Shown in pieces: positions 38,852 to 61,164 of a DNA stretch of 64,000 bases (position 1 is its first letter; each line of letters opens with the position of its first letter). Location of the stretch: assembly GCF_003426815.1 (NCBI RefSeq), contig NZ_QKYK01000028.1:1-64000 (forward strand), in the 5' to 3' direction. The notes under the pieces are model-generated. The model made no database searches, was not told the origin of the DNA, and saw only the letters and a list, made by a program, of their open reading frames with translations. The DNA comes from Desertimonas flava. GTDB taxonomy: Bacteria; Actinomycetota; Acidimicrobiia; Acidimicrobiales; Ilumatobacteraceae. The position numbers and the translations under genes were made by a program.

Positions 38852-38874
38852 GGGCCGAGTTGGGAGGATACGTC

Positions 38875-45507: not shown

Positions 45508-45757
45508 GGCAGTGCTCCTGGGGACGTGAGGTACGGCGGGGTCCGACGTTTCGGTGGGACCACGTCGACCGTTGGACGCCGGTCGACCTGGTCTGCCGAT
45601 GGAGTTCGGTTGGCCCGTCCATGGCATCAACGGCGTCGAACGGCGGCTCGTCACGCAAGTAGGGGTTTCCCGACGCCCACGGACCGCCGTCGGCACGGCG
45701 GATCTGTAGTGGTTCACCTACTTTCACGAGCGCGGGTGCCACCCCGACGATCGCGCC
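45508..45757. promoter_or_regulatory. Divergent regulatory gap with GTAGGG palindromes
   Basis: No gene is seen here. GTAGTGGTTCACCTAC at 45706-45721 fits the second palindrome of the window, and a weaker copy, GTAGGGGTTTCCCGAC, lies at 45659-45674. They stand 36 and 83 bases before the small gene at 45758. Confidence 0.55.
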
Positions 45758-45997
45758 GTGCGATCCGAACTCGACGTCGTCATTCGTCTCGATCTCGCGA
45801 CGCGTCCTGCTCGAGGCGTCCGCGGTGCCGTCGAGTCTCGGTATGGAACCCGGTCGTTCTCAGGGTGGCTCGACCTGCTCGGTCACCTCGAAGGACTCGT
45901 CGACCGCGCCCACGAGGACGCCGGCCGTGCTCGTGGGGCCGCGACGGCCGACCCTGCGGAGGGCCGAACTCGCGATGAGGAGGCGAGCGGTGGGTGA
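45758..45997 (+). CDS. Small hypothetical protein at head of GAP/AI-2E operon
   Basis: A 79-residue protein starting with GTG. The middle (ESRYGTRSFSGWLDLLGHLEGLVDRAHED) reads like an amphipathic, conserved domain; the tail is polar. It overlaps the GAP-family start by eight bases. I do not recognise the family. The overlap and its position right after the palindrome favour a real gene. Confidence 0.55.
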   Translation: MRSELDVVIRLDLATRPARGVRGAVESRYGTRSFSGWLDLLGHLEGLVDRAHEDAGRARGAATADPAEGRTRDEEASGG

Positions 45998-46664
45998 GGC
46001 CATCGGCGCACTGCTGCCGTTGGCGGTGGGTGTCGCTCTGAGCCCAGTGCCCATCATCGCGGTGATCCTGATGCTCGGGACCCCACGAGCGGGCACGACC
46101 GGCACGTCGTTCGCCGCCGGATGGATGTTCGGGTTGTCAGCTGTCGCGGCGGTGATCGCGCTCGCTGCCTCGGGGGCCGACGATCCGGACTCGGGACCGT
46201 CGACCGCGGTCGGCATCGTCAAGCTCGCCCTCGGCGTCGTGTTCCTCGCGTTGGCGATCGTCCAGTGGCGCAAGCGTCCGGCACCGGGTGAGGCACCTGA
46301 GATGCCCCGATGGATGCAGTCCATCGACCGGCTCACGCCGCTCAGGGCGGCGGGCTTCGGGGCGTTGCTCTCGGGAGCCAACCCGAAGAACCTCGCGCTC
46401 ACCGTGGCCGCGGCGGCGTCAGTCGCCGAGGGAGGGCTCGGAGGCGGGAGAACGGTCGCGGCACTGGCGATCTTCGTGATCGTCGGGTCGTTGACGGTCC
46501 TGGGGCCTGTGACGCTCTACCTGGTCGCTCCCACGAGCGCGGCGGCAAAGCTCGAGGCGGTCAAGCAGTTCCTGTCGGCGCACAACGCCACCATCATGAT
46601 GGTCGTGCTCGTCATCCTCGCGGCGAAGTTGATCGGCGACGGCATCGGTGGACTCAGCGGCTGA
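45990..46664 (+). CDS. GAP-family (Sap-like) membrane protein
   Basis: A 224-residue membrane protein with six hydrophobic segments and the LPLAVGVALSPVPIIAVILMLGTPRA start and LLSGANPKNLALT loop typical of the GAP family (glycopeptidolipid-addressing proteins and relatives). Export of a lipid or small molecule is possible. GTG at 45990 is preceded by AGGAGG at good spacing. The AI-2E gene follows after 10 bp. Confidence 0.85.
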   Translation: MGEAIGALLPLAVGVALSPVPIIAVILMLGTPRAGTTGTSFAAGWMFGLSAVAAVIALAASGADDPDSGPSTAVGIVKLALGVVFLALAIVQWRKRPAPGEAPEMPRWMQSIDRLTPLRAAGFGALLSGANPKNLALTVAAAASVAEGGLGGGRTVAALAIFVIVGSLTVLGPVTLYLVAPTSAAAKLEAVKQFLSAHNATIMMVVLVILAAKLIGDGIGGLSG

Positions 46665-46674
46665 GGTGGATCCG

Positions 46675-47766
46675 ATGATCGAGCCGAACGTGCCGCCGTG
46701 GTTCGATCGCGTCGGCGGGGTCGCCTGGCGCATCGTCGCCATCGCCGTCGCCGTGACCATCGTGGTCGCCGGCACGGTCGCGCTGACCTCGATCATCGTA
46801 CCGGTCGTGCTCGGACTGCTGTTCGCCTGCGGCCTGCATCCACTGTCGGAACGACTGCGCCGTCGCGGGGTCAGTCGCGGCCTCGCCGCCGGGCTCCCGG
46901 TCCTCGCCCTGATGTTCGCAGCCGCCATGGTCGCGTGGCTGGTCGTCCTCACCGTCGTCGACCAATGGGACGAGATCACGGCGCTCGTGTCGCGGGGCCG
47001 GACGACGTTGGAGGATGCGGCGACCGACGCCGGGCTCGAGCCGTCGACGAGCAGCGATCTCTCCGCCGACATCGGCGCCGCCACAGCCTCCGCCCTCCGC
47101 TCCTTGCTCGAGGGACTCGTGCATCTCGTGCCCACCGTGGCTTCGGTCGGGACCTCCTTGCTACTCGGCTTCATCGCCGGCTTCTTCTTCCTGCGCGACG
47201 GCGCGGCGATGTGGGAGTGGTTCGTGTCGCGCGTGGGAGGAGCGAGTGCCCTGACCGATCGCATCGGCCGACGGGCGTGGTCGACGCTCAGCGGATACCT
47301 GCGTGCCCAGACGGTGATCGCGGCCATCGACGCTGCGGGGATCCTCGCCGGCGCGCTCGTGGTCGGTGCGCCACAACCGGCGGCGATCTTCCTGATCACG
47401 TTCCTCGCCGCCTTCATCCCCTTCATCGGGGCGTTCCTGTCCGGCCTCGTCGCGGTGCTTCTCGTGCTGGGGGACTCCGGGCTCGGACCCGGCCTCGTGA
47501 TGCTGGCTGTCGTCCTGGTCGTGCAGGTCGTGGAGGGCAACGTCCTCCAGCCGTGGATTCAAGGTCGGGCGGTGACGCTCCACCCGTTGGTGATCGCGCT
47601 GTCGGTGACGGCCGGCGGAGCGATCGCCGGCTTCCTCGGCGTGCTGCTCGCGGTCCCCGTCACCGCCGCCGGTGTCGTCGCGATCTCCCAGCTCCGGACG
47701 GCCGGAGTGCTCGGTTCGGGACCCGTTGCGGTCACGGAGCCGGCCGACGCGTCGGCTCGACGCTGA
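46675..47766 (+). CDS. AI-2E-family transporter
   Basis: A 363-residue AI-2E/PerM-family protein with paired N-terminal helices, a soluble middle (DQWDEITALVSRGRTTLEDA), and the C-terminal block AFIPFIGAFLSGLVAVLLVL ... VEGNVLQPWIQGRAVTLHPLVIALSV, the family signature. Members are exporters or antiporters. The ATG at 46675 follows GAGGTG. It ends 12 bp before two opposite-strand small genes. Confidence 0.92.
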   Translation: MIEPNVPPWFDRVGGVAWRIVAIAVAVTIVVAGTVALTSIIVPVVLGLLFACGLHPLSERLRRRGVSRGLAAGLPVLALMFAAAMVAWLVVLTVVDQWDEITALVSRGRTTLEDAATDAGLEPSTSSDLSADIGAATASALRSLLEGLVHLVPTVASVGTSLLLGFIAGFFFLRDGAAMWEWFVSRVGGASALTDRIGRRAWSTLSGYLRAQTVIAAIDAAGILAGALVVGAPQPAAIFLITFLAAFIPFIGAFLSGLVAVLLVLGDSGLGPGLVMLAVVLVVQVVEGNVLQPWIQGRAVTLHPLVIALSVTAGGAIAGFLGVLLAVPVTAAGVVAISQLRTAGVLGSGPVAVTEPADASARR

Positions 47767-47777
47767 GGCCACGAGAT

Positions 47778-47993
47778 CTACCCATCGCGGGCGCGGGCGA
47801 CGAGACGGACGTCGAGGAGCTCGAGCCCGAACGTCTGGAGCCGGTCCAGCACGTCGTGCAGCCGCGCCTGCGGGCACGCCACGATCGTACGCCCCGGCGC
47901 GATCGTCACGCCGCAATCGTCGAACGCGCTGCACAGCGTGTCGCTCGCCGCTCCCTTGAACGACACTTCGTAGTCGATCTCGACGCGGCCCAT
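47778..47993 (-). CDS. Small ACT-like protein B (unknown)
   Basis: A 71-residue protein whose C-terminal part (LHDVLDRLQTFGLELLDVR) matches that of the next gene upstream (VDGLLDRLDDLGLELLDLR). A beta-strand (VEIDYEVSFKG) followed by two helices suggests an ACT-like or ferredoxin-like fold. The ATG overlaps the upstream stop (TGATG). Function unknown. Confidence 0.7.
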   Translation of the reverse strand: MGRVEIDYEVSFKGAASDTLCSAFDDCGVTIAPGRTIVACPQARLHDVLDRLQTFGLELLDVRLVARARDG

Positions 47994-48244
47994 CACGTGA
48001 TGGGCGTGCCGGGGATCGCCGCATCGGGCCGGGTCGGGGCCCGGATACCGCCGCGAAGATCGAGCAGTTCCAATCCCAGGTCGTCGAGCCGATCCAGCAA
48101 CCCGTCCACGGTCGTGGGGTCACGGGCGTCCGCCCGCAGGCGGGTGACCCCGCCACCGACCGCGACGGTGGGCAGACCCAGCATCGCGACGAGTTCGCCG
48201 CTCGCCTCGCCCTTGATCGTGATGTCGACGTGTCTGGCGCTCAT
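47993..48244 (-). CDS. Small ACT-like protein A (unknown)
   Basis: An 83-residue paralogue of the following gene, starting MSARHVDITIKGEASGELVAML. Together they look like a tandem duplication of a small beta-alpha domain that may form a heterodimer. Divergent from the LAL regulator at 48401. Confidence 0.7.
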   Translation of the reverse strand: MSARHVDITIKGEASGELVAMLGLPTVAVGGGVTRLRADARDPTTVDGLLDRLDDLGLELLDLRGGIRAPTRPDAAIPGTPIT

Positions 48245-48279
48245 CCGCCCAGCGTCGCGCCGCTCGCTTCAGCGCGCCT

Positions 48280-48332
48280 CACCCCGGTTGGGGCGATTCG
48301 CCATCCGCGGCGCGTTCACCCCGGCCGGGGTG
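48280..48332. promoter_or_regulatory. Paired GC palindromes in front of LAL regulator
   Basis: CACCCCGGTTGGGGCG (48280-48295) and the perfect palindrome CACCCCGGCCGGGGTG (48317-48332) are 37 bp apart centre to centre, on nearly the same helix face. A partial third copy starts at 48342. They are candidate operators for the divergent pair, perhaps autoregulation. Confidence 0.5.
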
Positions 48333-48400
48333 ACGACGGCTCACCCCGCCGGCTGGTTCGCTCCTACCGTCCCACTCCGGGACGGGAAGAGAGCGACGAG

Positions 48401-51157
48401 GTGCTGGACGTGGCCGCCAACGCGTACCACCGCTGCGTGTCGGCCGACGATCGGATCGTCGGCCGACGAACCGAGCGGGCACGACTGACCGAGCTGGTCG
48501 AGCGCGCCGTGGACGGGCACCCTTGCCACGGCGTGGTGCACGGTGTGGCCGGGAGCGGAAAGACCACGATGCTCTCCTGGACGGTCTCGCTCGCACGGGA
48601 GCGGGGTTTCGACGTCGTCGACGTCCACGTCCGCGGTGAAGGTCTCCCACTCGGAGACCTGCGCGCGGCGTTTCCGGATGTCACCGGCGTCAGAACACAC
48701 CTCGAGCTGCTCGAGAGCGTTCGCGATCGTCTCGAGTCGTCGGCCGCCGAACGTCCCGTGTTGGTCGCCGTCGACAACCTCGACTCCGCCGATCGGGCAA
48801 CCGCACACGCCGTGCTCTATCTCGTCCGCCACCTCCGGCACCATCGGGTCCTCGTCGTGGCCACCTGTCGGGACGAGCGCATGGCTGACGATCTGGCCGA
48901 CCACGTTCGTCGCCTCACCGACGGCGGACGAGCCAGAGACGTGCACCTCGACATGTTCGGTGAGGACGATGTGGCCGAGCTGGTGGGCGTGCGCTCTGGG
49001 ATCATGCCGCACACCGGCTTCGTGTCCATGATCCGAGACCGGACCGGCGGACTGCCGTTCTACGCGGTGGAGCTGCTCGACGTGCTCCTCGCCGCCGGTG
49101 TGGACCCCGCGTCCACCTTGGTCGCGGCCCGGGCGAGGGACCTCGCGCTGCCTCGACGGGTCACGACGGCAGTCCTCCATCGGGTGTTCGAGCAAGGCGC
49201 GGACGCACGACTGGTTGCGGCCGCCGCGTCCGTACTCGGGTCGACGACGCTCGATCGGCTCGGTCTGCTGGGCGAGCTGACGGGTCTCGACGTCGCCCGA
49301 ACAGGCGAGGCCTTCGACGCCCTGGTCCGCTCGCTCATCCTGGTTCCCGACGAGGCCACGTTCCGGTTCGCTCACGCGATCGTGCGCGAAGCGCTGTACG
49401 CCGACTTGGACCCGGCAGTCCGCCGCCGCTGGCACTCACGTGCCGCCGATCTGCTCGCCCGGCAGCGCTCGGCCTCCCGACCGGACGCCGTCCTCGAAAT
49501 CGCCGGGCATCTCCGTCGCGGCAGCGGTGGCCGCGATCCAGACGCCGCCCGGCTCTTGCGCGACGCCGGCGACGCGGTCGTCTACGACGATCCGCGCGCC
49601 GCAGCCGACTGGTATCGGGACGCGCTCGGCCGCCTGGCCCCGAGCAACCCGTCGGTCCCGTCCCTCCAGCTCTCGCTCGGCCACGCGCTCGACCTCAGCG
49701 GCCACCACGACGAGGCCGCACGAGTGACCGTCGCCGCGCTCCGAGCACTCGGCCCCGGGCCGGAACGGGAACGGGGAGCGTTGATCGCTTCTCGGGCGGC
49801 CGCCGCATCGGCTCGCTTCGAGCTGGCCGCGATGTTCGTCGATGCCGCGCTCAGCGGTGGGAACGAACGAGGCGTGTCGCCGAGCAGGCTGCTCGTCCAG
49901 CGCGGCTGGGTGCGGTTCTGGCAGGGCCAACTCGTCGCCGCAGCACAGGACCTTGCCGACGCGAGGAGCCTGGCCGTCGGGGATGCCGACCCCGAAGCCG
50001 ACGCGCTCGACATGCAGCTGTGCTTTCAGCGCGGTGACGCCCTCCGCGGATCGGAGATCGCCGGGCGGCTCCGTGCCCGTCTCGACGGCCTCGCGGCACC
50101 GGCGCGACATTGCGTCCAGTCCAATCTGCGCGTGGTCGCCGCCTTCGAACTCGATCCGGCAGCCGCGCTGGTGGATGCCGATGGGATCGCGCCCCGATCA
50201 GCGATGGCGGATTGGCATCACGCGTGCCTCGCCGTCGCCCTGTGGCGACAGGGTCGGCTGGCCGATGCTCAGCGGACGATCGAGCAGGCGGCCGCGGCGT
50301 CCCGCGATGCCCCGAGCGGTTTCGCGGCGAGCGTGATCCACGCCGTCCAGATCGGGACGCGTGCCGAGCTCGGTGACCACGACGGCGCCGAGCGCTTCCG
50401 CCAACGGGCTCGAAGCAGCAGCCGGCTCGTGCTGCCGTCGCTCGTCGACTGCGCCGTTGCCCGTCTGCACGTGGTGCGCGGCGAGCCCGGCCTCGCCCTC
50501 ACGGTGCTCGACGGGGCGGCTCGGCGAGAGCGTGACGTCGGTCGCGTCAACCTCTTGACCGCCGTCCTGGCTGAGGTCGTCGACGCGGCGGTGGCCGCAG
50601 GGCGCCGCTCTGAGGCGATCGCGGCCAACGCAGAGATGCAGAAACTCCCCGACGACGGGGCAAACCTCGCTGCCACCGTCCGGCGAGCCATCAGCGCCGC
50701 CGTGGCCGAACGCGATCCCGAGGCCGCCCGCAGGGCGCGCGTCTGCGCGGTCCGCCATCAGTTGGCGTCGGACGCCGCGCGCGCCGCGCTCCTCCTCGGC
50801 CAGATCGAGGGGGACCCCGAGCAGATCCTTCTCGCTCACGACGAGTTCGCGGTCATCGGCGCGGTGGAGCGACAGCGCGACGCCGCGCGGCTGATCCGCC
50901 AGCACCGCGGCGGTCCGCGACGCCGTCGGCTCCAGGACGGAGAGCTCAGCGACGACGACCACGCCATCGCTCGGCTCGTGGCCGACGGGCTGTCGAATCG
51001 CCAGATCGCCCGGCGCATGAGCTTCAGTCCCAAGACGATCGAGGTCTACCTCTCCCGCATCTACGCGAAGACGGGCTGTCGATCTCGAGTGGAGCTCGCG
51101 GTCGCCGTCCAGCGCGACGAGCTCGTCGGCGCCCGACGGGGGCGAGATGGAACGTGA
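48401..51157 (+). CDS. Large LAL-type LuxR regulator, paralogue A
   Basis: A 918-residue regulator with an AAA_16-like ATPase (GVAGSGKTT near 47-55, Walker B VLVAVDNLD), a long helical TPR-like middle, and a C-terminal LuxR helix-turn-helix (LSNRQIARRMSFSPKTIEVYLSRIYAKTG). It is paralogous to the regulator at 53837; the two recognition helices are nearly the same. GTG 48401 is chosen; GTG 48410 is possible. The opposite-strand MscS gene ends one base after its stop. Confidence 0.92.
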   Translation: MLDVAANAYHRCVSADDRIVGRRTERARLTELVERAVDGHPCHGVVHGVAGSGKTTMLSWTVSLARERGFDVVDVHVRGEGLPLGDLRAAFPDVTGVRTHLELLESVRDRLESSAAERPVLVAVDNLDSADRATAHAVLYLVRHLRHHRVLVVATCRDERMADDLADHVRRLTDGGRARDVHLDMFGEDDVAELVGVRSGIMPHTGFVSMIRDRTGGLPFYAVELLDVLLAAGVDPASTLVAARARDLALPRRVTTAVLHRVFEQGADARLVAAAASVLGSTTLDRLGLLGELTGLDVARTGEAFDALVRSLILVPDEATFRFAHAIVREALYADLDPAVRRRWHSRAADLLARQRSASRPDAVLEIAGHLRRGSGGRDPDAARLLRDAGDAVVYDDPRAAADWYRDALGRLAPSNPSVPSLQLSLGHALDLSGHHDEAARVTVAALRALGPGPERERGALIASRAAAASARFELAAMFVDAALSGGNERGVSPSRLLVQRGWVRFWQGQLVAAAQDLADARSLAVGDADPEADALDMQLCFQRGDALRGSEIAGRLRARLDGLAAPARHCVQSNLRVVAAFELDPAAALVDADGIAPRSAMADWHHACLAVALWRQGRLADAQRTIEQAAAASRDAPSGFAASVIHAVQIGTRAELGDHDGAERFRQRARSSSRLVLPSLVDCAVARLHVVRGEPGLALTVLDGAARRERDVGRVNLLTAVLAEVVDAAVAAGRRSEAIAANAEMQKLPDDGANLAATVRRAISAAVAERDPEAARRARVCAVRHQLASDAARAALLLGQIEGDPEQILLAHDEFAVIGAVERQRDAARLIRQHRGGPRRRRLQDGELSDDDHAIARLVADGLSNRQIARRMSFSPKTIEVYLSRIYAKTGCRSRVELAVAVQRDELVGARRGRDGT

Positions 51158-51158
51158 G

Positions 51159-51968
51159 CTACGCCGGCACCTCCCTACCCGCCGGAGGCGGCGAGCTGAC
51201 CGTCGCCGCGATCCCCGCATCGAACAGGGCGGCGGCGACGGCCCTCACGGTCTCCGACGCGGTGTCGCCCACGTCGTGCCACACCCCGATGTGCAGGACG
51301 AAGGAGCCGGTTCCGATCGACCTGATCGTGATCCGTGGCTGCTCGTGCCCGGCGCCGAGCGGGTCCAGGGCAGCAGCGAGCGCATCGAGCACCGCGTCGA
51401 GGCCGGCCCGGGCGTCGGCCCGTACCTCCACCTCTGCCTTTTGCCGTCTCGTCGCCGTCACGTTCACGATGGGGTGCTGCAGTACCTCGGCGTTGGGCAG
51501 GTGCACGGTCCGGCCGTCGCCGGTCTCGAGGACCACCGTGCGTCCGTTCACGTCGACCACGGTGCCGACGTGGCCGAGCGCCTCGATCCGGTCGCCCCGC
51601 TGGAACGGGTGCCGGGTCTGGATCACCAAGCCGGCGACGAAGTTCTCGCCGATCCCCTTGAGCGCCAACACCCCGGTGACGGCGACGACTGCGGCCACGG
51701 CCAAGAGCGGCTGAACCTGGGCCCCGAGAAACCCCAGCGCGACCCCGACCCCGACGACCCACACGAGGTATTTGGCGAGTCGAGCGACGAACTGGCGAAG
51801 GTCCTCCCCCACCCCCTCGATCCGGCCGGCGAGCCGCAGGACGGTACGGCGCACTCCGCGCCCGGCGATCCAGGAGAACGCCACTGCGATCGTTGCGAGG
51901 GCGACGTCCCATCCCGTCACCTGACCGCTCGTCAGCAGGTCGTCTATGTCCGATGCAGCCGAGATCAC
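51159..51968 (-). CDS. MscS-family mechanosensitive channel
   Basis: A 269-residue small-conductance channel-like protein with three membrane helices, the pore-lining VVAVTGVLALKGIGENFVAGLVI and the beta-domain motif PFQRGDRIEALGHVGTVVDVNGRTVVL followed by the LPNAEV loop. It would release solutes on osmotic downshock. It starts with GTG. A GTAGGG palindrome lies in the divergent gap to the SulP gene. Confidence 0.92.
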   Translation of the reverse strand: MISAASDIDDLLTSGQVTGWDVALATIAVAFSWIAGRGVRRTVLRLAGRIEGVGEDLRQFVARLAKYLVWVVGVGVALGFLGAQVQPLLAVAAVVAVTGVLALKGIGENFVAGLVIQTRHPFQRGDRIEALGHVGTVVDVNGRTVVLETGDGRTVHLPNAEVLQHPIVNVTATRRQKAEVEVRADARAGLDAVLDALAAALDPLGAGHEQPRITIRSIGTGSFVLHIGVWHDVGDTASETVRAVAAALFDAGIAATVSSPPPAGREVPA

Positions 51969-52004
51969 CCGCCCGAGTCGACCACGATGCGGGGTGCAGG
52001 GCGA

Positions 52005-52020
52005 GTAGGGAACGCCCTAC
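52005..52020. promoter_or_regulatory. GTAGGG-N4-CCCTAC palindrome (MscS/SulP gap)
   Basis: GTAGGGAACGCCCTAC is a perfect inverted repeat around its central four bases, placed between the divergent MscS and SulP genes. It is the clearest of the four good copies in region D. Confidence 0.65.
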
Positions 52021-52107
52021 GTGACAGCGACGCAAGCGCGTCCCTACGGTCGGACCGGCCGGCCGGGCGGCTCGTCGCCGCCGGCGGGCCGAAAGGAGCC
52101 TTGACCG

Positions 52108-52128
52108 ATGTCCCTCTCCGAGTCGTGA
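52108..52128 (+). CDS. Possible six-residue leader peptide before SulP
   Basis: An ATG nine bases after AAAGGAG opens the frame MSLSES and stops at TGA, overlapping the GTG at 52125 (GTGA). The good ribosome-binding site serves this frame rather than the SulP start, so coupling by re-initiation is likely. Confidence 0.35.
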   Translation: MSLSES

Positions 52129-53840
52129 CGACAGCCAGACGATCACGTGTCCGATCTCGGTGGGGGTCGGTCGGGCCGTGGCTCCGATCGCGGGCCCTCC
52201 GGCGCGCGACGCTCAGATCCGACCTGCTGGCCGGTCTCCCGGTGGCGGTGAGCAGCGTCCCCGACGGAATGGCCGCTGGCGTGCTGGCGGGGGTCATTCC
52301 CGTTGCCGGGCTGTATGCCAGCTTCGCCGGCCCGGTAGCCGGCGGCCTGGCCAGCAGCACCCGGCGGATGGTGATCACGACGACGTCCGCGGCGGCCCTG
52401 GCCGCCGGCTCGGCACTCGGTTCGGTTGACCAGGCAGAGCGCGCCGATGCGTTGGTCCTGCTGACGCTGCTGGCCGGCGGATTCATGCTCTTGGCGGGCC
52501 TGCTCCGGCTCGGCCGGTATGCGCGATTCGTGTCGCACTCGGTGATGATCGGCTTCCTCACCGGGATCGCCGTCAACATCGTCTGCGGCCAGCTCGCCGA
52601 CCTGACCGGCTCGCCGAGCCGCGGCAGCACCAACGTCGCCAAGGCACTGCACATCCTCGTCCATCCCGGTCAGGTCCACCTCCCGTCGCTGCTCGTCGGC
52701 ATCGGCGCGATCGCGGCGCTCGTCGGCGTTGCCCGGACGAGGCTCGCCGTGATCAGCACGCTCGTCGCCCTGATCGTTCCGACAGCGGTGGTGCTCGTCG
52801 CCGGCGTCGAGATCGCCCGCGTCGACGACGCCGGACCGATCCCGTCGGGATTTCCGAGCTTGGCGTGGCCTCGTCTCGGCCTGCTCGACGGCACGCTGAT
52901 CGGCAGTGCGATGGCCATCGCGGCGATCGTGCTCGTGCAGGGCGCAGGGGTGGCCGAGTCTGCTCCGAACGGCGACGGACCCGCCAGGACGAATCAGGAC
53001 TTCGTCGCCCAGGGGGTCGGCAACGTGGCCTCGGCACTGTTTCGGGGACTCCCGGTGGGAGGCTCGGTCGGGACCACGGCGCTCAACGTCAGCGCCGGGG
53101 GGCGTTCCCGTTGGTCGGTGATCTTCGCGGGGATCTGGGTCTTGATCATCCTCGTTGCGTTTGCGCCGGCGGTGGGAGTCGTGGCCATGCCGACGCTCGC
53201 CGCGGTGCTCGTCGTGGCGGCGACCGCCTCGATCCGTCCCGGAGAGATGACGACGATCTGGCGCGCCGGGCCCAACTCCCGAATCGCCCTGGTGAGTACC
53301 TTCGTCGCCACGTTGCTGCTGCCCGTTCCGGCGGCCGTCGGACTCGGCGTCGTGGTGTCGCTGCTGCTCCAGCTCAACCAGGAGGCGATCGACCTGGCGG
53401 TGGTGGAGCTCGTGCCGTCCGGCGGGCGCATCGCCGAACGCCCCGCCCCCGCACTCGCGCGCAGCGACGGCGTCACCGTCTTGGCCGTCTACGGGAGTCT
53501 GTTCTACGCCGGCGCCCGCACCCTGCAGTCGCAGCTCCCCGACCCGAGCGGTACTCGGCACGCCGCCGTGGTGCTCAGGCTGCGGGGCCGCACGACACTG
53601 GGGGCGACGTTCTTCCTCGTCGTCGCGGCCTATGCCCGGCAGCTCGCCGAAGGCGGCGGCCGGCTCTATCTCTCCGGCCTGAGCTCCGAGATCAACGAAG
53701 GTCTGCGCTCCGGACGAGGTCTGGCGACCGCGGGTTCCGTGCACTTGTTCCCGGCAACGGAGCTCGTCGGTGACTCGACGAGGGCGGCGATCGTCGACGC
53801 CGAGGCGTGGCTGGTGACGGCATCGGATGAGGAGGCATGA
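52125..53840 (+). CDS. SulP-family transporter with STAS domain (1)
   Basis: A 571-residue SLC26/SulP transporter: the N-terminal SDLLAGLPVAVSSVPDGMAAGVLAGVIPVAGLYASF signature, 10-12 membrane helices up to about residue 420, and a C-terminal STAS domain (GVTVLAVYGSLFYAG ... LRGRTTLGATF). It moves an anion such as sulfate or bicarbonate. GTG 52125 is the most likely start. It overlaps the next regulator by four bases. Confidence 0.92.
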   Translation: MTTARRSRVRSRWGSVGPWLRSRALRRATLRSDLLAGLPVAVSSVPDGMAAGVLAGVIPVAGLYASFAGPVAGGLASSTRRMVITTTSAAALAAGSALGSVDQAERADALVLLTLLAGGFMLLAGLLRLGRYARFVSHSVMIGFLTGIAVNIVCGQLADLTGSPSRGSTNVAKALHILVHPGQVHLPSLLVGIGAIAALVGVARTRLAVISTLVALIVPTAVVLVAGVEIARVDDAGPIPSGFPSLAWPRLGLLDGTLIGSAMAIAAIVLVQGAGVAESAPNGDGPARTNQDFVAQGVGNVASALFRGLPVGGSVGTTALNVSAGGRSRWSVIFAGIWVLIILVAFAPAVGVVAMPTLAAVLVVAATASIRPGEMTTIWRAGPNSRIALVSTFVATLLLPVPAAVGLGVVVSLLLQLNQEAIDLAVVELVPSGGRIAERPAPALARSDGVTVLAVYGSLFYAGARTLQSQLPDPSGTRHAAVVLRLRGRTTLGATFFLVVAAYARQLAEGGGRLYLSGLSSEINEGLRSGRGLATAGSVHLFPATELVGDSTRAAIVDAEAWLVTASDEEA

Positions 53841-56623
53841 CCGTGGTGGAGCACCGTTGCACGCCGCCGTTCATCGGGCGCGCTGCCGTCCTGGAGCGCG
53901 CCGGCGCGCTGCTGCGGCGCGCCAGTGCCGGTTCGCAGCAATCGCTGCTGATCACAGGCGACGCCGGGACGGGCAAGTCCGCGTTCCTGTGTCAGCTCCG
54001 CGAGGTCGCCAGAGCCAGCGGGTTCGGCGAGGTCGTCGTCGATGGCGACGTGCTCGACGGTGCCGTTCCGTACGCCCCCCTCCGGCTCTCCCTGGAGGCA
54101 CTGCACACCGGCTCGTCCGGCGTGGAGACAGCCCCTGCCCTGGCCGCGATCGCCGCCGCCCCGGCCGGGTGGTCGGGCGGCGACCGTGGCTGCGACGGCC
54201 CCGTGATCGACGCCTTCACGGGACTGCTCGAGGCGATGGCCTTCCGCCGCCCGGTCATCGTGGCGATCGACGACGTGCACGCGCTCGATCCGGCCTCGGC
54301 CGAGCTGATCCGCGAGCTGATGAGGCGACGGCGAGACGGGCGGGTGCTCGTCGTGGCGACCAGCCGGCGGTCGCCCGGCCGCGCCGGGATCCCCGCCGGC
54401 AGGACCTCCTCGTCGACGGACGGCCGGCTCGATTCCGTCGAGCTGGGCGGCTTGTCGAGAACGGAGTTCGACGAGCTCGCCGCCGCGGTCACCACCGAAC
54501 CACTCGGCCGACCCGACGCCGATCTGCTGTACGACATCACCGGCGGAGTGCCGTTCTTCGCAGTCGAGCTTCTCCGCGCCATGGCGGAGTCCCCGTCCGT
54601 CATGCACGCGGTAACGGCCCGAGACCTGCCGGCCGACGGCGAGGTGTCGCTGCCCCGGCGCGTCGCGACGGCGGTGCTGCACAACGTCGAACGTCTCGGA
54701 CCCGACTGCCGGCGGGTCGCCGCAGCGGTTGCCGTGCTCGGCGACGCCGAGCACGGCAGTCTCCGTCTCGTATCGGCGCTGACGGAGCTGTCGGCCGAGC
54801 GGGTGACCGCCGCGCTCGATCGCCTCGTCGACGGCCGGGTGCTGAGCTCTCGGCACGGTAGGTACCGGTTCCGCCACGCCCTGGTGCGCACCGCGGTCTA
54901 CTGCTCCATCGGTCCGGCCACACGGCAACGGTGGCACGGCGATGTCGCCGATCGGCTCAGGCGACGCGTCGACAGCGGCGACGCCCACACGCTCGTCGAG
55001 GTCGCTGGTCACGTACGCAGATCCCGACAGCCCGGACCTGCCGCCGCCCGGCTGCTCACCGCCGCCGGCGACCTCGTCGCCGACCGTGATGCCCGCTCCG
55101 CTGCCTGCTGGTACGACGCGGCGCTGGCCCGACTCGCCCCCGACGACCCCGCCGTCGTCGACTCCCAGCTCCGCCTCAGCAGCGCGCTCGGTCTCTGCGC
55201 TCGCCACGACGAGGCGGAGCGACTCGCCAACGCCGTGCTCCGCGTGGCGCCTCCCGGCGCCGTCCGAGCGCGGGCCGCAGTTCTGGCCGCACGACCCCGC
55301 GTCGCCGGGGCCGACCTCGAACGGGCGGGAGCCGTCCTCGACGACGCGCTCGGCGACCCGGCGACCCGGTGCAGCGCCCTGTTCCTCCACCGTGCCGTCG
55401 TCCACATCTGGGACGGCGGACTGGCAGCCGCGGGAGCGTGCCTCGACGAGGCCCGAGCGCGTGGGCCGGCGGAGCATGCTTGGTTGGCCGACCTCGTCGA
55501 GATGCACCTCGCCGTCGGCGCCGGCCGGTTTCATCGCGGCGCAGCATTCGGCAGACGGGTCCAGGCGCAGCTCTCCCGCTGCGACCCGGCCGACCGCGCC
55601 GTGGCCCTGCTGCACGTCGCTCTCGTGAATGCCCTCGATCTCGACCCCGCCGTCGCGATCGATCTCGTCGTCCGGGCGGGTGACCAGGGGCCACTCACCC
55701 CGTCCTTCGACGCCGTCGTGGCATATGCACGTTTCCGGCAGGGGCACTTCGGAGACTCGCTGCGGCACGCCGACTCGGCGAGGACCGCCTACGGGGCCGA
55801 CCTGCTGCACGCCCTGTCGGTCGCGCCAGCCATCGCCAGCAACGCCGAGCGAGGCGAACTGGCCGCGGCCGACGCCATCGCTGTCGACCTCGACGCCGCC
55901 CGGCCGCATCCGCTTCGCCAGCTCGTCGACGCGGCCGTCGCGCAGCTCCATCTGGTGCGCGGTGACCATCGGACGGCCGGCGCGGTTCTGGCGGCGGGGG
56001 GCACGGCCTCCTCCGACCGAGTCGGCGTGCTGGCCGTCACGCTCGCTCGGACCGTCGACGTGCTCCTCGCGGCCGACGACCTGCCGGGCGCCCGGGCCGC
56101 CAACGATCGCCTGCAGGCGCTGCCGACAGACGAGACGGCCACCGCCATGAACATGCTCCAGCTCCGCGCCAGCGCGGTCGTCGACGGGGACCTGGAGGCG
56201 GCGCGGCACGCCCGTGAACTCTCCGTCGAGCGGGGGCTCGAGTTCGATGCCGCTCGATCACTGGCCACGATCGGCTCGATGACCGCTGACGCGGCGATTC
56301 TGCTCGAGGCGTACCGCGATCTCGGCGGGCTCGGAGCGACGTACCAGCAGCGGGCGGTGGCGAACGAGCTGCGGCGTCTCGGACGCCGGGTCCCAGCCGG
56401 TCCCAGTGGCGCCGGGACGTTGACCGCGGTCGAGCAGGACGTCGCGGCCCTCGTCGCTCAGGGGCTGACCAACCGTCAGGTGGCCCTGCGCACCAGCTTG
56501 AGTTCGAAGACGGTCGAGGTCTATCTCTCGCGCATCTACGGCAAGACCGGGTTCCGGTCCCGGGTGGAGCTCGCCGTGGCCGTGAACGACGGACGCCTCG
56601 CCGAACCACCGGGCCACTCGTAG
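53837..56623 (+). CDS. Large LAL-type LuxR regulator, paralogue B
   Basis: A 928-residue regulator: P-loop GDAGTGKSA near 41-49, Walker B VIVAIDDVH, helical middle, and LuxR helix-turn-helix (LTNRQVALRTSLSSKTVEVYLSRIYGKTG). It is a paralogue of the regulator at 48401. The ATG overlaps the SulP stop (ATGA), so regulator and anion transporter are co-translated. Its stop codon lies inside the GTAGGG palindrome of the next unit. Confidence 0.92.
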   Translation: MTVVEHRCTPPFIGRAAVLERAGALLRRASAGSQQSLLITGDAGTGKSAFLCQLREVARASGFGEVVVDGDVLDGAVPYAPLRLSLEALHTGSSGVETAPALAAIAAAPAGWSGGDRGCDGPVIDAFTGLLEAMAFRRPVIVAIDDVHALDPASAELIRELMRRRRDGRVLVVATSRRSPGRAGIPAGRTSSSTDGRLDSVELGGLSRTEFDELAAAVTTEPLGRPDADLLYDITGGVPFFAVELLRAMAESPSVMHAVTARDLPADGEVSLPRRVATAVLHNVERLGPDCRRVAAAVAVLGDAEHGSLRLVSALTELSAERVTAALDRLVDGRVLSSRHGRYRFRHALVRTAVYCSIGPATRQRWHGDVADRLRRRVDSGDAHTLVEVAGHVRRSRQPGPAAARLLTAAGDLVADRDARSAACWYDAALARLAPDDPAVVDSQLRLSSALGLCARHDEAERLANAVLRVAPPGAVRARAAVLAARPRVAGADLERAGAVLDDALGDPATRCSALFLHRAVVHIWDGGLAAAGACLDEARARGPAEHAWLADLVEMHLAVGAGRFHRGAAFGRRVQAQLSRCDPADRAVALLHVALVNALDLDPAVAIDLVVRAGDQGPLTPSFDAVVAYARFRQGHFGDSLRHADSARTAYGADLLHALSVAPAIASNAERGELAAADAIAVDLDAARPHPLRQLVDAAVAQLHLVRGDHRTAGAVLAAGGTASSDRVGVLAVTLARTVDVLLAADDLPGARAANDRLQALPTDETATAMNMLQLRASAVVDGDLEAARHARELSVERGLEFDAARSLATIGSMTADAAILLEAYRDLGGLGATYQQRAVANELRRLGRRVPAGPSGAGTLTAVEQDVAALVAQGLTNRQVALRTSLSSKTVEVYLSRIYGKTGFRSRVELAVAVNDGRLAEPPGHS

Positions 56624-56635
56624 GGGACTGCCTAC
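56620..56635 (+). promoter_or_regulatory. GTAGGG-type palindrome (DUF1269/SulP unit)
   Basis: GTAGGGGACTGCCTAC stands 66 bases before the DUF1269 start and includes the stop codon of the upstream regulator. One of four good copies. Confidence 0.6.
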
Positions 56636-56701
56636 TACCACGCCCTCGCCGACATCGATGCAATGGCCGGCAGTCCAGTCAGATCGCTACAGGAGGTCAC
56701 G

Positions 56702-57193
56702 ATGGCAACACTCACGGCATGGAAGTTCGACTCCCCGACCGGGGCGGCGCAAGCTGAGAACACGCTGATCGAGCTGGCCAAGGAACAGCTCATCAACATC
56801 TACGACGCGGCCATCGTGGAGTGGCAACCCGGCAAACGCAAGCCCAAGACCCGGCAGGCCAACGACCTCACCGGTTCGGGGGCGGTCGGCGGCGCCTTCT
56901 GGGGCTTGCTGTTCGGGATCTTGTTCTTCGTCCCGTTGCTCGGGGCGGCGATCGGCGCCGCTGCCGGGGCCATCGGCGGGTCGATGGCCGACGTGGGCAT
57001 CGACGACGACTTCATCGAGTCGGTCAAGGCGAAGGTGACACCTGGGACCTCCGCCCTGTTCCTGTTGTCGAGCGACGCGGTCATCGACAAGGTGCGGGAG
57101 GCATTCGCGGGTGTGGAGGCGGAGCTGATCCACACGAACCTGTCGAACGAGGACGAGGCCAAGCTTCGTGACGTGTTCGCGGACGAGGCCTGA
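56702..57193 (+). CDS. DUF1269-family membrane-associated protein
   Basis: A 163-residue protein with an alpha/beta N-terminus (WKFDSPTGAAQAENTLIELA), a central Gly-rich membrane hairpin (GAFWGLLFGILFFVPLLGAAIGAAAGAIGGSMADVG), and an acidic C-terminus, the DUF1269 layout. Function unknown; often in stress gene sets. AGGAGG precedes the ATG at ideal spacing. Confidence 0.9.
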   Translation: MATLTAWKFDSPTGAAQAENTLIELAKEQLINIYDAAIVEWQPGKRKPKTRQANDLTGSGAVGGAFWGLLFGILFFVPLLGAAIGAAAGAIGGSMADVGIDDDFIESVKAKVTPGTSALFLLSSDAVIDKVREAFAGVEAELIHTNLSNEDEAKLRDVFADEA

Positions 57194-57235
57194 CACGAAC
57201 CGGGCGCCCGAGGATCGGCGGCCGGGGTCGACCTC

Positions 57236-58936
57236 ATGAGCGCTCCCCCGGCCGCCCCACTCTTCGCATCGCTTCGCGGATACCGGCGGCGCTGGCTCCG
57301 TGCCGACGTCGTCGCCGGTCTCACGGTGTGGGCCGTGCTCGTCCCGGAGTCTCTCGCCTACGCGTCGATCGCCGGGGTCTCTCCCGTGGTCGGGCTCTAT
57401 GCCGCGCCACCGGCGCTCGTGCTGTACGCGGCCTTCGGGAGCTCTCGGCATCTCGTCGTCGGCCCGATGTCGGCGACAGCGGCGATGTCGGCAGCAGCGG
57501 TTGCCGATCTGACGACTGGCGGACCCGGAGAGGTGCTGGCGTTCACCGCGGTGTTGGCGCTCGTCACCGGAGTGCTCGCGCTCGCCGCCGGCGTGTTGCG
57601 GCTCGGGTTCGTGGCCAACTTCATCTCCGAACCGGTGCTCAAGGGCTTCGTCATCGGCCTGGCCTTGACCATCATCGTCGGCCAGGTCCCCAAACTGCTC
57701 GGTGTCGAGAAGGAGAGCGGCAACTTCTTCGAGCAGTGCTGGCATCTCATCGGGGAGCTCGGGGACACCCACGGTCGCTCCCTCGCCATCGGCGCCGTGT
57801 CGTTCTTCGTCGTCATCGCTGTCCGGGAGTGGTTGCCACTCGTCCCCGGCTCGCTGGTGGCTGTCGTCGTCGGGGTCGTCGCCGTCACGCTGTTCGGCCT
57901 CGACGAGCACGGGGTCGAGATCGTGGGCGAGATCGACAGCGGGCTCCCCGCGCTCGGATGGCCCGACGGGAGCTCGCTCAGAGACGGTCTGCGGGCCACC
58001 GGCGCGGCTGCCGGAATCATGCTCGTGGCCTTTGTCGAGGGCCTGGGAGCGGCGAAGGCGTACGCGGCGCGGGAGCACGACGTCATCGACCCCAATCGGG
58101 AGCTGATCGGTCTCGGTGCCGCCAACCTGGCGACAGGCCTCGGCAGCGGCATGGTGGTCAATGGCAGCCTCTCGAAGACGGCCGTGAACGGATCGGCAGG
58201 GGCCCGGACCCAGCTGTCGGGTCTGGTGGCCGCCGGCCTCACGATCGTCACGCTCCTGTTCCTCACAGGATTGTTCGAACAGCTGCCGGAACCGACGCTC
58301 GCGGCGATCGTGATCGCTGCGGTCATCGAGTTGGTGGACGTCGGCGCGCTGCGTGGGCTCTATCGCCTCTACACGCAGGATCTCGGCCGCATCTACGGCC
58401 GGGCGGCGCGGCCCGACTTCGCCGCCGCGATCGCTGCGCTCGTCGGCGTGCTCCTCTTCGAAGCGCTGCCCGGACTGGCCCTCGGCGTCGTCGTGTCGCT
58501 GCTGTTGTTGCTGCGCCGGGCCTCGGCGCCGCACATCGCCGTGCTCGGACGGGTGCCTGGAACCTCCGACCAGTTCGGCGATGTCGATCGCCACCCCGAC
58601 AACCGGCCCGTGCCGGGCGTGGTCGTGCTGCGTGTGGAGGCCGGGCTGTTCTTCGCCAACACCGATTCGGTGCGATCGGCGATCAAGGAGGCGGCGAGCC
58701 GACCGGACACCCGCGCCGTGATCCTCGACGCTGGGGCGGTGCCGTCGATCGACGTGACGGCCGTGCGGATGCTGAGCGAGACCGCAGGAGACCTCGAGCG
58801 GGACGGCCGGCGACTGGTGATCGCCCACGACCTCGGCCAGGTCGGTGACCTGCTCGCCATCGAGGCGGACGGCGACGTGCCCGTCCATCGGACGGTCACC
58901 GAGGCGATCGACGCGGTGGACGGTTCGTCCGCCTGA
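57236..58936 (+). CDS. SulP-family transporter with STAS domain (2)
   Basis: A 566-residue SulP transporter: LRADVVAGLTVWAVLVPESLAYASIAGVSPVVGLYA signature, the central loop GLGSGMVVNGSLSKTAVNGSAGARTQ, and a C-terminal STAS domain (GVVVLRVEAGLFFANTD ... VILDAGAVPSIDVTAV). It is more typical of the family than the first SulP and only moderately similar to it. It follows DUF1269 by 42 bp in one unit. Confidence 0.93.
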   Translation: MSAPPAAPLFASLRGYRRRWLRADVVAGLTVWAVLVPESLAYASIAGVSPVVGLYAAPPALVLYAAFGSSRHLVVGPMSATAAMSAAAVADLTTGGPGEVLAFTAVLALVTGVLALAAGVLRLGFVANFISEPVLKGFVIGLALTIIVGQVPKLLGVEKESGNFFEQCWHLIGELGDTHGRSLAIGAVSFFVVIAVREWLPLVPGSLVAVVVGVVAVTLFGLDEHGVEIVGEIDSGLPALGWPDGSSLRDGLRATGAAAGIMLVAFVEGLGAAKAYAAREHDVIDPNRELIGLGAANLATGLGSGMVVNGSLSKTAVNGSAGARTQLSGLVAAGLTIVTLLFLTGLFEQLPEPTLAAIVIAAVIELVDVGALRGLYRLYTQDLGRIYGRAARPDFAAAIAALVGVLLFEALPGLALGVVVSLLLLLRRASAPHIAVLGRVPGTSDQFGDVDRHPDNRPVPGVVVLRVEAGLFFANTDSVRSAIKEAASRPDTRAVILDAGAVPSIDVTAVRMLSETAGDLERDGRRLVIAHDLGQVGDLLAIEADGDVPVHRTVTEAIDAVDGSSA

Positions 58937-58991
58937 CTCATCCCGCCTGACGTCCCGCCCAACTCTGCCCGCCGGACTCGGCCCGCCCGAC

Positions 58992-59249
58992 TCACGCCGA
59001 ACGGGCCCGCCACCAGCGCCACAGGGCCGTGGTGACCAGGGCACCGGCCAGCGAGCCGAGCACACCGCTCGGGCGCAGATCGAAGCCGTCGCCGGCGGCG
59101 AGGCTGACGACCATGCCGCCGAGGAGCGACCCGAGCAGACCGGCCACCAGCGCGGTCCCCCAGTCGACACCGCGACCGGCCTCGCCGAGTATCAGCTGGG
59201 CGCCCGCCCCGACGAGCATGCCGAACAAGAGGATTCCGATGATGATCAT
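58992..59249 (-). CDS. GlsB/YeaQ/YmgE-family small membrane protein
   Basis: An 85-residue membrane protein with three hydrophobic segments and Gly-zipper motifs (LLFGMLVGAGAQLILG, LVAGLLGSLLGGMVVSLAAG). This family is often stress-induced. Its ATG overlaps the stop of the DUF2254 gene, so they are an operon. It converges with SulP 2. Confidence 0.88.
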   Translation of the reverse strand: MIIIGILLFGMLVGAGAQLILGEAGRGVDWGTALVAGLLGSLLGGMVVSLAAGDGFDLRPSGVLGSLAGALVTTALWRWWRARSA

Positions 59250-60466
59250 GACGAGGTTCTCCCTGTGGTCGTGTGGGTCAACGAGACGAGTCGGGTCTCC
59301 AGATCGTCCCGTCGGTCGGCGGGCGCGAGTGCGAGCAGGTCCGTGATCAGGTCCCGCAAGCGGGCTTCGACGGTCGGCGAACGCCGGGCGAAGTGGGCGA
59401 TCTCGTCCACCGCGACCGCCAGGAAGTCGTTCCACGTGGGGAGCGACAGGTGAACACGAGCCGTCCCGTCCTCGTCGGCGATCGTGCCGAAGTCGAGCTG
59501 CTTGTCGATCACCACGGCCAGGAGGTCGAAGATGCAACCGAGCGCATCGACGCACGTGGCCGGGTCGTTGACGGCCAGCGACATGGCCCGGTTCCCGATG
59601 TCGCCGAGCAGCCGGAAGGCGAGAAGCGGGTCCTGGGGAAATTTCCGGTCGGTGCCCGTGGCGAGGGACCGTTGGACCCTGCAAGCGTCCACCGGCGCCG
59701 AGGCGAGTACTTCGGCGACGACCAGTCCCCGCCGGAGCTCCGAGCCGATCATCGGCTTCATCTCGATCACGGCGTCGAGGCGACGCGCCTCGAGCAGCAG
59801 GCCGCGCAGATCGATCCCGGTCAGGAGGGTCGTCGGTCGCTGCCACCTCACCTCGGTGACGACGGGCGGCCGCTCAGCGTCGACCGGCGGCCGACAACCG
59901 GACGTCGTGCGGTAGATCGACGAGAGCACCTCTTCGCCGCGCCGCCGGATCTGCTCCATCGAATCGTTGAACTGCAGCGAGCGCAGCGCCCGGAGCTGCA
60001 GCGCTCGGGACAGCCCGAGGGCCACGAGGACCATGACGACGGCAGCGATGGGTACGGCAGCGGAGACGTCCTCGGCGTCGGGGCCGATGCGGACCGCCGA
60101 TGTACTGCAGAACACCAGCACCGCGGTGAAGTAGCTGAACGAGTGCCAGACGATCGGCGCGTCTCGAAACAGCGTGAAACGAGGGCTGAACGCCGTGTTG
60201 CCGTGCTGCACGACGAGGAAGAGCAGCGAGAACACGAGAGCGATGAACGAGATCAGTCCGCCGGAGATGCCGAGCAGGAGTGGCGCCACGGATTCACGAT
60301 GGGCTCGCGGTCCGCCGCCGACCTCGGGCAGCGCGAACGCGAGGAGGACGGCCACGCTCACGTATCCGAGCTGCACGAGTCCGACACGAAGACCCCGCCG
60401 ACGCCGGAGAGCGGCCAGCAAAGCGCCCTGGCCGCCGCGTTGCCCGCCGTGACCGGTCAGCATCGA
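59246..60466 (-). CDS. DUF2254 membrane protein
   Basis: About 406 residues with four N-terminal membrane helices (VGLVQLGYVSVAVLLAFALP, LLLGISGGLISFIALVFSLLFLVV and two more) and a soluble C-terminal domain (QRPTTLLTGIDLRGLLLEARRLDAVIEMKPMIG), the DUF2254 layout. Function unknown. The start is uncertain: ATG 60466 is used here; in-frame GTGs up to 60568 are possible. Confidence 0.85.
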   Translation of the reverse strand, partial: SMLTGHGGQRGGQGALLAALRRRRGLRVGLVQLGYVSVAVLLAFALPEVGGGPRAHRESVAPLLLGISGGLISFIALVFSLLFLVVQHGNTAFSPRFTLFRDAPIVWHSFSYFTAVLVFCSTSAVRIGPDAEDVSAAVPIAAVVMVLVALGLSRALQLRALRSLQFNDSMEQIRRRGEEVLSSIYRTTSGCRPPVDAERPPVVTEVRWQRPTTLLTGIDLRGLLLEARRLDAVIEMKPMIGSELRRGLVVAEVLASAPVDACRVQRSLATGTDRKFPQDPLLAFRLLGDIGNRAMSLAVNDPATCVDALGCIFDLLAVVIDKQLDFGTIADEDGTARVHLSLPTWNDFLAVAVDEIAHFARRSPTVEARLRDLITDLLALAPADRRDDLETRLVSLTHTTTGRTSS

Positions 60467-60662
60467 GCCGGCTCGCAGTGCAGGTTCGGGAGCGACATGC
60501 TCCACATCTCGCGCGTTGTCGTCTCTGCCCACGATGCGCCGACTCGAACACCCGCCGGTCGTCGGCACAAGTTGGGATACCCCTATCGCCAGGCCACCTC
60601 ACGCCACGTCACGGCGGGAGGCTGGGGCCGGCCCGACGTCGCCCGACACAGTTTCCGCGACT

Positions 60663-60678
60663 GTAGGGATCCTCCTAC
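60663..60678 (+). promoter_or_regulatory. GTAGGG-type palindrome (before four-helix membrane gene)
   Basis: GTAGGGATCCTCCTAC lies 69 bases before the ATG at 60748, almost the same distance as the copy before DUF1269 (66). Confidence 0.6.
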
Positions 60679-60747: not shown

Positions 60748-61164
60748 ATGATCCGACTGCTGATGCGCGTCGTCATGATGGTTGCGGGCAATGCTCTCGG
60801 GCTGATCGCCGCGGCGACTGCGCTCGACGACATGTCGTTGGCCGTCCGCGGGTTCCTCATCGCGGTCGGAGTGTTCACTGCGGTGCAGCTGCTCATCCAG
60901 CCTGCGCTCACTCTGCTCGGCCTGGACCGGGTGACGGCGCTGGCAGGGAGTTCGGCCCTGGTGTCGACCCTTGTCGCTCTGATCGTCACCGATGTCGTGT
61001 CCGACGGTCTGCGCATCCATGGCCTCGGCACGTGGGTGCTCGCCGCCGTCATCGTCTGGGTGGTGGCGCTCGTCGGAGGTCTGCTGCTGCCGATCGTCGT
61101 GTTCAAGCGCTGGACCGACCACGCCCGTGCTGAACGGCACCAAGAGGTCCACACCTGGCGATGA
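60748..61164 (+). CDS. Four-helix membrane protein, holin-family-like
   Basis: A 138-residue membrane protein with four hydrophobic segments and no charged domain, similar in layout to the phage-holin-family membrane proteins common in actinobacteria; no phage genes are near. AGGAG stands nine bases before the ATG. Function unknown. Confidence 0.75.
   Translation: MIRLLMRVVMMVAGNALGLIAAATALDDMSLAVRGFLIAVGVFTAVQLLIQPALTLLGLDRVTALAGSSALVSTLVALIVTDVVSDGLRIHGLGTWVLAAVIVWVVALVGGLLLPIVVFKRWTDHARAERHQEVHTWR

Follow-up and report, generated by a model that had tools for sequence, protein, structure and literature searches.

A 16-bp palindrome with the consensus GTAGGG-RWWY-CCCTAC occurs six times in the promoter gaps of a membrane/stress gene block of Desertimonas flava, within the 64,000-nucleotide stretch of contig NZ_QKYK01000028.1 (positions 1 to 64,000; hereafter the window) that we analyzed. 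Sequence comparisons make it rather likely that one clade of large ATP-binding regulators of the LuxR family (LALs), that with the recognition helix KT[VI]E.YL[ST]R[IL]Y, uses this palindrome as its operator, and that the copies described here are bound by LAL2, LAL1, or both of these block-encoded proteins, which would control the block.

Copies of the palindrome and their rarity

The six copies are listed below with the mismatches counted over the 12 palindromic bases and with the scores of a matrix that was trained on nine sites outside the window.

45659..45674, no strand: operator copy GTAGGGGTTTCCCGAC; 1 mismatch of 12, 19.4 bits; divergent gap between the DUF1254 gene (minus) and the small F.GW/SfLAP/AI-2E genes (plus)
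45706..45721, no strand: operator copy GTAGTGGTTCACCTAC; 2 mismatches, 15.3 bits; small F.GW gene 36 bp on
52005..52020, no strand: operator copy GTAGGGAACGCCCTAC; perfect, 0 mismatches, 17.9 bits; gap between MscS (minus) and SulP1-LAL2 (plus)
56620..56635, no strand: operator copy GTAGGGGACTGCCTAC; 1 mismatch, 17.4 bits; overlaps the LAL2 stop codon
60571..60586, no strand: operator copy GTTGGGATACCCCTAT; 2 mismatches, 18.4 bits; upstream of DUF2254 (minus), with the core TAGGGRWWYCCC on the minus strand
60663..60678, no strand: operator copy GTAGGGATCCTCCTAC; 1 mismatch, 20.7 bits, the best of the window

Divergent genes flank five of these copies; the copy at 56620 overlaps a stop codon. 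A box stands in the gap ahead of every unit of the block, excepting LAL1 and the minus-strand reading frames at about 47776–48245. The distance from box to start codon was 83 bp for the copy at 45659, 36 bp at 45706, 104 bp at 52005, 66 bp at 56620 (DUF1269), and 69 bp at 60663 (PF04020), with GTG start codons that we chose ourselves for the small gene and for SulP1. An original prediction, made from the letters of the window, had placed copies at 45659, 45706, 52005, 56620, and 60663, each 36–104 bases before a gene start, and had noted none in the first 45 kb. Its coordinates were correct, its spacings match the measured gaps with the starts as chosen, and our scan found no copy below three mismatches in the first 45 kb; the sixth copy, at 60571, had been overlooked.

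At three mismatches the window held 30 matches, as compared with 19.5 expected and 29 in the richest of 100 shuffles, and because this enrichment is only modest, the evidence rests on the good copies. We therefore turn to the genome assembly (6.22 Mb in 73 contigs, 96.6% complete), where up to two mismatches gave 144 places for the palindrome and 577 for the backwards pattern; since the backwards pattern outnumbers the true one, loose matches are mostly noise. Six of the 144 places fall in the 15-kb block, where 0.33 would be expected (P about 1e-6, for an interval chosen post hoc). The genome-wide scan that had been suggested with the prediction also showed that the exact form GTAGG-N6-CCTAC is confined to the block, which holds all three of its occurrences in the genome, the backwards control giving eight. 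By the outside matrix the six copies are the top six sites of the 64 kb (20.7 to 15.3 bits), the next site scoring 11.4, and there were six sites of at least 14 bits in the window as compared with 0.1 expected per simulated window (first-order Markov). The predicted palindrome is thus confirmed, and its signal exceeds what had been described. That the copies are a chance cluster in GC-rich DNA with no regulon behind it is highly improbable: loose matches are indeed common, and the stress-gene homologues of relatives lack the box (see below), but the clustering and the confinement of the exact form speak against chance, as does the recurrence of the box at LAL promoters that had been retrieved through their helix-turn-helix (HTH) rather than through the motif.

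With six bases that can pair across a loop of four, the palindrome could also form an RNA hairpin in a 5' leader, acting as an attenuator or stabilizer. In the 15 sites considered, 16 of the 90 pairs deviate, and none of these is compensated, 4 being wobble pairs and 12 broken. Since the deviating pairs are uncompensated, the element is to be read as a DNA operator, and the RNA hairpin was rejected as very unlikely; the location of five copies between divergent genes and of one over a stop codon also counts against it.

The RWWY centre of TAGGGRWWYCCC was read by eye from these 15 sites, those of the window included. This form had four matches in the genome and two in the backwards control. 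Those at 45660 and 60574 fit by construction, and the remaining two are new places on either side of a further LAL pair, on contig C45 (C, G, and L numbers are our handles for contigs, genomes, and loci). At those places (L133 4082 and 10350, that is G000:C45:42082 and 48350), GTAGGGGAACCCCGCTAC and GTAGGGATATCCCGCTAC flank the LAL pair and constitute an asymmetric relative of the box. Two genome copies with at most one mismatch, C16:35017 and C72:113083, lie inside called open reading frames (ORFs) and were taken as chance. A further copy at C8:93333 (L125 9334), GTAGGGACTCCCCCAC, stands 47 bp ahead of a gene that by eye resembles an ABC (ATP-binding cassette) ATPase, and is a possible distant member of the regulon.

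The box at LAL promoters in other genomes

The two LALs of the block are as follows.

48401..51157, plus: LAL1, 918-aa LuxR-type ATPase regulator; Pfam GerE, AAA_16; helix KTIEVYLSRIY
53837..56623, plus: LAL2, 928-aa LuxR-type ATPase regulator; Pfam AAA_16, GerE; helix KTVEVYLSRIY

Both have an N-terminal ATPase domain (AAA_16, E 4e-11 in LAL1 and 5e-19 in LAL2) with a Walker A motif by pattern, and a C-terminal GerE/LuxR HTH (residues 849–901 of 918 and 861–914 of 928, respectively). The HTHs share 61% identical residues across 62, and the recognition helices KTIEVYLSRIYAKTG and KTVEVYLSRIYGKTG are nearly identical, as had been noted earlier. The LAL2 operon promoter holds the perfect box, 1.8 kb upstream of LAL2; no GTAGGG box was found in the scanned stretch of LAL1's own promoter.

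An HTH alignment search of the genome contigs gave 13 loci, and a search of the same contigs with LAL2 alone found no relative. Further HTH searches covered 397 genomes drawn from the order at E 1e-12 and, at E 1e-20, 200 genomes from the family together with 396 from the phylum, in overlapping sets. The LALs examined are the fetched part of the HTH matches, not a random sample, and several come from the same genome; their helices were read individually. From 57 HTH matches, 17 without Walker A by pattern were left out of the count (L082, two of L085, L088, two of L089, L090, L091, L092, L093, L125, L129, one of two in L132, L135, one of two in L160, L163, and the window's ORF at 38703). Among them are Streptomyces and Nonomuraea proteins with the helix KTVETYLSRIF, and L093 with KTVENYLTRIY. 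L083 and L084 were counted once, with G578:C97 and G574:C78.

The results showed that a box with at most two mismatches stood upstream of 5 of the 11 LALs that had both the helix KT[VI]E.YL[ST]R[IL]Y and a promoter that could be scanned, whereas none of the 29 with other helices had one (Fisher P 7e-4). One of the five, G049:C49, had been fetched because motif and LAL coincided; omitting it left 4 of 10 (P 2.6e-3). In all five the box lies 185–294 bp upstream of Walker A, and the fifth is LAL3 of the present genome (contig C34), with one copy at two mismatches and one at three. The other four are:

Box at the G049:C49 LAL: GTAGGAGCATCCCTAC
Box at the G578 LAL: GTAGGGATTCCCCTAT
Box at the G574 LAL: GTAGGGGTTCCCCTAC
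Box at the G498 LAL: GTAGGGGAACCCCTAC

The HTH tree (62 residues, midpoint root, branch support not considered) groups all box-bearing LALs in a single branch, and L159 has a near-miss at three mismatches, AGAGGGGAAACCCGAC. The idea that a LAL protein binds the palindrome is thus favored by its presence at the promoters of same-helix LALs, including a third LAL here and those of relatives from two families, but LAL1 and LAL2 are indistinguishable as the putative binder.

Genes beside the box, and another LuxR-type protein as a possible binder

In four of the five box-bearing loci, a small F.GW protein is encoded on the other side of the box, divergently from the LAL. Those of L061, L156, L157, and L158 carry F.GW.EL...LE. 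A hidden Markov model (HMM) was built from L061, L156, L157, and the window's protein, so that L158 is an independent find. The members of this family (F.GW.[DE]L...LE) are:

L061, 10377-10553
L156, 384-566
L157, from 6694
L158, 6495-6671
Window, 45758-45997

The window's 79-aa protein had no Pfam match, and neither it nor two relatives had a match in NCBIfam. Weak matches of the HMM (E 7e-5 to 0.01) were seen near other LALs, in L113, L137, L136, and L143.

The remaining neighbours, called from ORFs and a third-position-GC heuristic, differ between loci. A further box stands ahead of a carboxylesterase gene in L061 (GTAGGGATACTCCCAC), L157 (GTAGGGGTTCCCCTAC), and L158 (CTAGGGATTTCCCCAC), and L158 also has a branched-chain-type ABC transporter. 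In the LAL3 locus, an enoyl-CoA hydratase/acyl-CoA ligase pair has a box facing it, and a further box separates the stop codon of LAL3 from an ABC operon of a family-5 solute-binding protein and a permease. The box follows the LAL branch, while the target genes vary.

This bears on the possibility that a different LuxR-type protein, such as a NarL/DosR-type response regulator or a PAS-LuxR regulator, binds the box, the LAL genes being merely members of its regulon. PAS-LuxR regulators, too, have GGG-N4-CCC boxes, NarL and DosR are the nearest solved HTHs to the LAL HTH, and the genome encodes many LuxR HTHs. However, the box tracks one LAL branch through loci that differ in their other genes (carboxylesterase, ABC transporters, enoyl-CoA hydratase/acyl-CoA ligase; the flanks were viewed without a systematic regulator search), and we regard this alternative as unlikely, though less so than a hairpin or chance.

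Stress-gene neighbourhoods in relatives

A DUF1269 match was found in 32 relatives, and six neighbourhoods were examined. G038, G178, G175, G018, and G172 share parts of the DUF1269/DUF6325/SHOCT/SfLAP/BrkB neighbourhood, and G054 has the DUF1269 homologue alone. None of the six stretches showed a SulP homologue or a convincing box. The traces were GTGGGAGTTGCACTAC in L197 (weak, 11.4 bits, 38 bp ahead of DUF1269), GTCCGGATACTCCAAC in L199 (weak, 12.0 bits, 3.6 kb from DUF1269), and TCAGGGGTATTCCTAC at 17095 in L195 (14.2 bits, 1.7 kb beyond the SHOCT gene). The claim that the palindrome marks the membrane/stress block consequently stands for this genome and fails in the six neighbourhoods of relatives. 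Absence of the motif upstream of homologous units had been named in advance as contradicting the prediction; it does so for the gene set and leaves the LAL assignment unaffected.

Two of these neighbourhoods, in G178 (L195, G178:C12) and G175 (L196, G175:C220), carry another palindrome, TCACCC-N5-GGGTGA. In G178, 10 of its 21 matches (at most one mismatch), including all 3 perfect ones, are on that 19-kb contig, and the backwards control gave 4 in the genome. The gene set is therefore not tied to one operator. Nearby in both genomes are LuxR-HTH proteins (ORFs of 915-1036 aa) with the helix NT[ILV]KTHL[KR]; the LuxR HTHs in L194-L200 were found by profile, not by regular expression. A protein of this kind is also encoded in the present genome, at 38719-41466, with the helix NTLKTHVK and no Walker A by pattern. 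It is conceivable, if somewhat doubtful, that a LAL clade with its own palindrome and a dedicated F.GW partner moved onto a block controlled, in relatives, by the NT[ILV]KTHL[KR] class of LuxR proteins through TCACCC-N5-GGGTGA, the small protein being part of the sensing unit. One gene set would then have changed over between two regulators, each with its own operator code.

The LAL1 promoter (48278-48334) contains TCACCCCGGCCGGGGTGA, the sole perfect TCACCCC-N4-GGGGTGA of the genome, within the stretch TTCACCCCGGCCGGGGTGA; a near copy, TCACCCCGGTTGGGGCGA, lies 37 bp upstream. This palindrome is perhaps the site of another regulator, e.g. the large LuxR-HTH protein at 38719-41466.

Proposed regulation of the block

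Several observations, in addition to the boxless neighbourhoods of relatives, weigh against a LAL operator. For six of the 11 same-helix LALs, a scan of up to 560 bp gave no box, namely LAL1, LAL2 (which has the box at its operon promoter instead), G021, G102, G049:C51, and that of Nocardia aurantia. Helix class and HTH branch are not identical, as the branch also holds the boxless L128 (helix KTVEANLTRIY) and L093 lies outside it in spite of its fitting helix. The C45 LAL pair has the helix VATVEAHLTR and is flanked by the box variant GTAGGGRWWYCCCGCTAC. The best of 50 simulated windows reached 16.9 bits, above the weakest copy (45706), and the matrix is not wholly independent, as its training sites were selected for likeness to the noted motif. 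Finally, 13 or more LuxR HTHs of the genome reach E 1e-12 or better, and another LuxR protein could be the binder. With these points taken into account, a locally acting, self-regulating LAL operator is probably the best reading of the sequences, with a box at the regulator's own promoter in 5 of the 11 same-helix LALs and at the SulP1-LAL2 operon.

Apart from the LAL genes, the block and its flanks contain:

42743..43645, minus: BrkB/YihY membrane protein (PF03631)
43654..43968, minus: SHOCT protein (PF09851)
44028..44456, minus: DUF6325 protein (PF19850)
44536..45507, minus: DUF1254/DUF1214 protein, first gene of the divergent set (PF06863, PF06742)
45758..45997, plus: small 79-aa F.GW.[DE]L protein (own HMM of four members, itself included)
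45990..46664, plus: SfLAP (GAP-type) membrane protein (PF11139)
46675..47766, plus: AI-2E family transporter (PF01594)
51159..51968, minus: MscS-type channel, divergent from SulP1 (PF00924)
52125..53840, plus: SulP1 anion transporter, overlapping LAL2 by 4 bp (PF00916)
56702..57193, plus: DUF1269 membrane protein (PF06897)
57236..58936, plus: SulP2 anion transporter with STAS domain (PF00916, PF01740)
59246..60568, minus: DUF2254 membrane protein (ORF; true start probably near 60463) (PF10011)
60748..61164, plus: four-helix membrane protein (PF04020)
61235..61636, plus: PLDc_N/SHOCT protein (PF09851)

A small membrane protein accompanies DUF2254 on the minus strand. A six-codon ORF at 52109-52129, with a likely ribosome-binding site ahead of it, overlaps the GTG start of SulP1; it could serve as a translational coupler, or it may indicate that the start of SulP1 has been misread.

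In keeping with the observed positions, clustering, and recurrence at same-helix LAL promoters, LAL dimers at the six copies would control, and most likely activate, the surrounding units. Judged by gene spacing, these units would be DUF1254-DUF6325-SHOCT-BrkB, small F.GW-SfLAP-AI-2E, MscS, SulP1-LAL2, DUF1269-SulP2, DUF2254, and PF04020-SHOCT. By analogy with MalT and other STAND (signal transduction ATPases with numerous domains) proteins, LAL dimers or oligomers bound to inducer and ATP would occupy the boxes and recruit polymerase, and LAL2 would raise its own operon. The activating sign, the inducer, and a partner role of the small protein are likewise suggested by MalT and the PAS-LuxR proteins.

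Discussion

LAL regulators are numerous in actinobacteria, and to our knowledge few have a known DNA site. MalT of Escherichia coli is a STAND ATPase with a C-terminal LuxR HTH that controls transport operons. DosR/DevR of Mycobacterium tuberculosis is a response regulator that recognizes a palindrome with GGG/CCC half-sites, the spacing of which differs from that of the box described here; the LAL HTH is related to it, matching residues 28-81 of chain 1zlk_A.

The box of PimM/PteF-type PAS-LuxR regulators is given as CTVGGGAWWTCCCBAG, in the -35 region of target promoters (PMC9774167). The present palindrome resembles the box given there in its length of 16 bp, its GGG-N4-CCC core, its A/T-rich centre, and a LuxR-type HTH as the candidate reader, and the L158 site at 9656 (CTAGGGATTTCCCCAC) fits 15 of the 16 positions. 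It differs in its outer bases, GTA...TAC instead of CTV...BAG: the six window sites do not fit the PAS-LuxR consensus, as all start with GT, five end with AC and the one at 60571 with AT, and the centre is only partly AWWT. No PAS family was among the Pfam matches of LAL1 and LAL2 at E up to 0.001. Unlike a PAS-LuxR regulator as portrayed in that source, the candidate binder is a 900-aa ATPase, and the predicted targets are membrane/stress genes, transporters, and esterases rather than antibiotic clusters.

The LAL-type regulator SCO6993 of Streptomyces coelicolor (606 aa), a negative regulator of antibiotic genes, is described as binding palindromes, two of them in its own promoter, for which a consensus site could not be predicted (PMC9628970). 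Going by that description, both systems have a LuxR-type ATP-binding protein and palindromes, whereas here one predicted consensus recurs at several LAL genes. MalT boxes are given as short direct repeats, GGA[TG]GA (PMC9628970, PMC6099782), and TpdR boxes are treated in PMC6099782; unlike the MalT boxes so described, the present box is a 16-bp inverted repeat with both halves conserved in 15 sites.

In the open-access literature, six spelled-out forms of the palindrome were found in no paper save one on human cancer. Among the open-access matches listed, GTAGGG did not appear alongside LuxR-related terms (LuxR with GTAGGG alone would have escaped this search), nor did such a regulon.

The recurring predicted regulator-operator pair would allow a direct test of LAL specificity and offer a means to predict LAL regulons from sequence. 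It would also give a handle on the little-studied DUF1269, DUF6325, SHOCT, and F.GW small proteins, which appear to be co-expressed.

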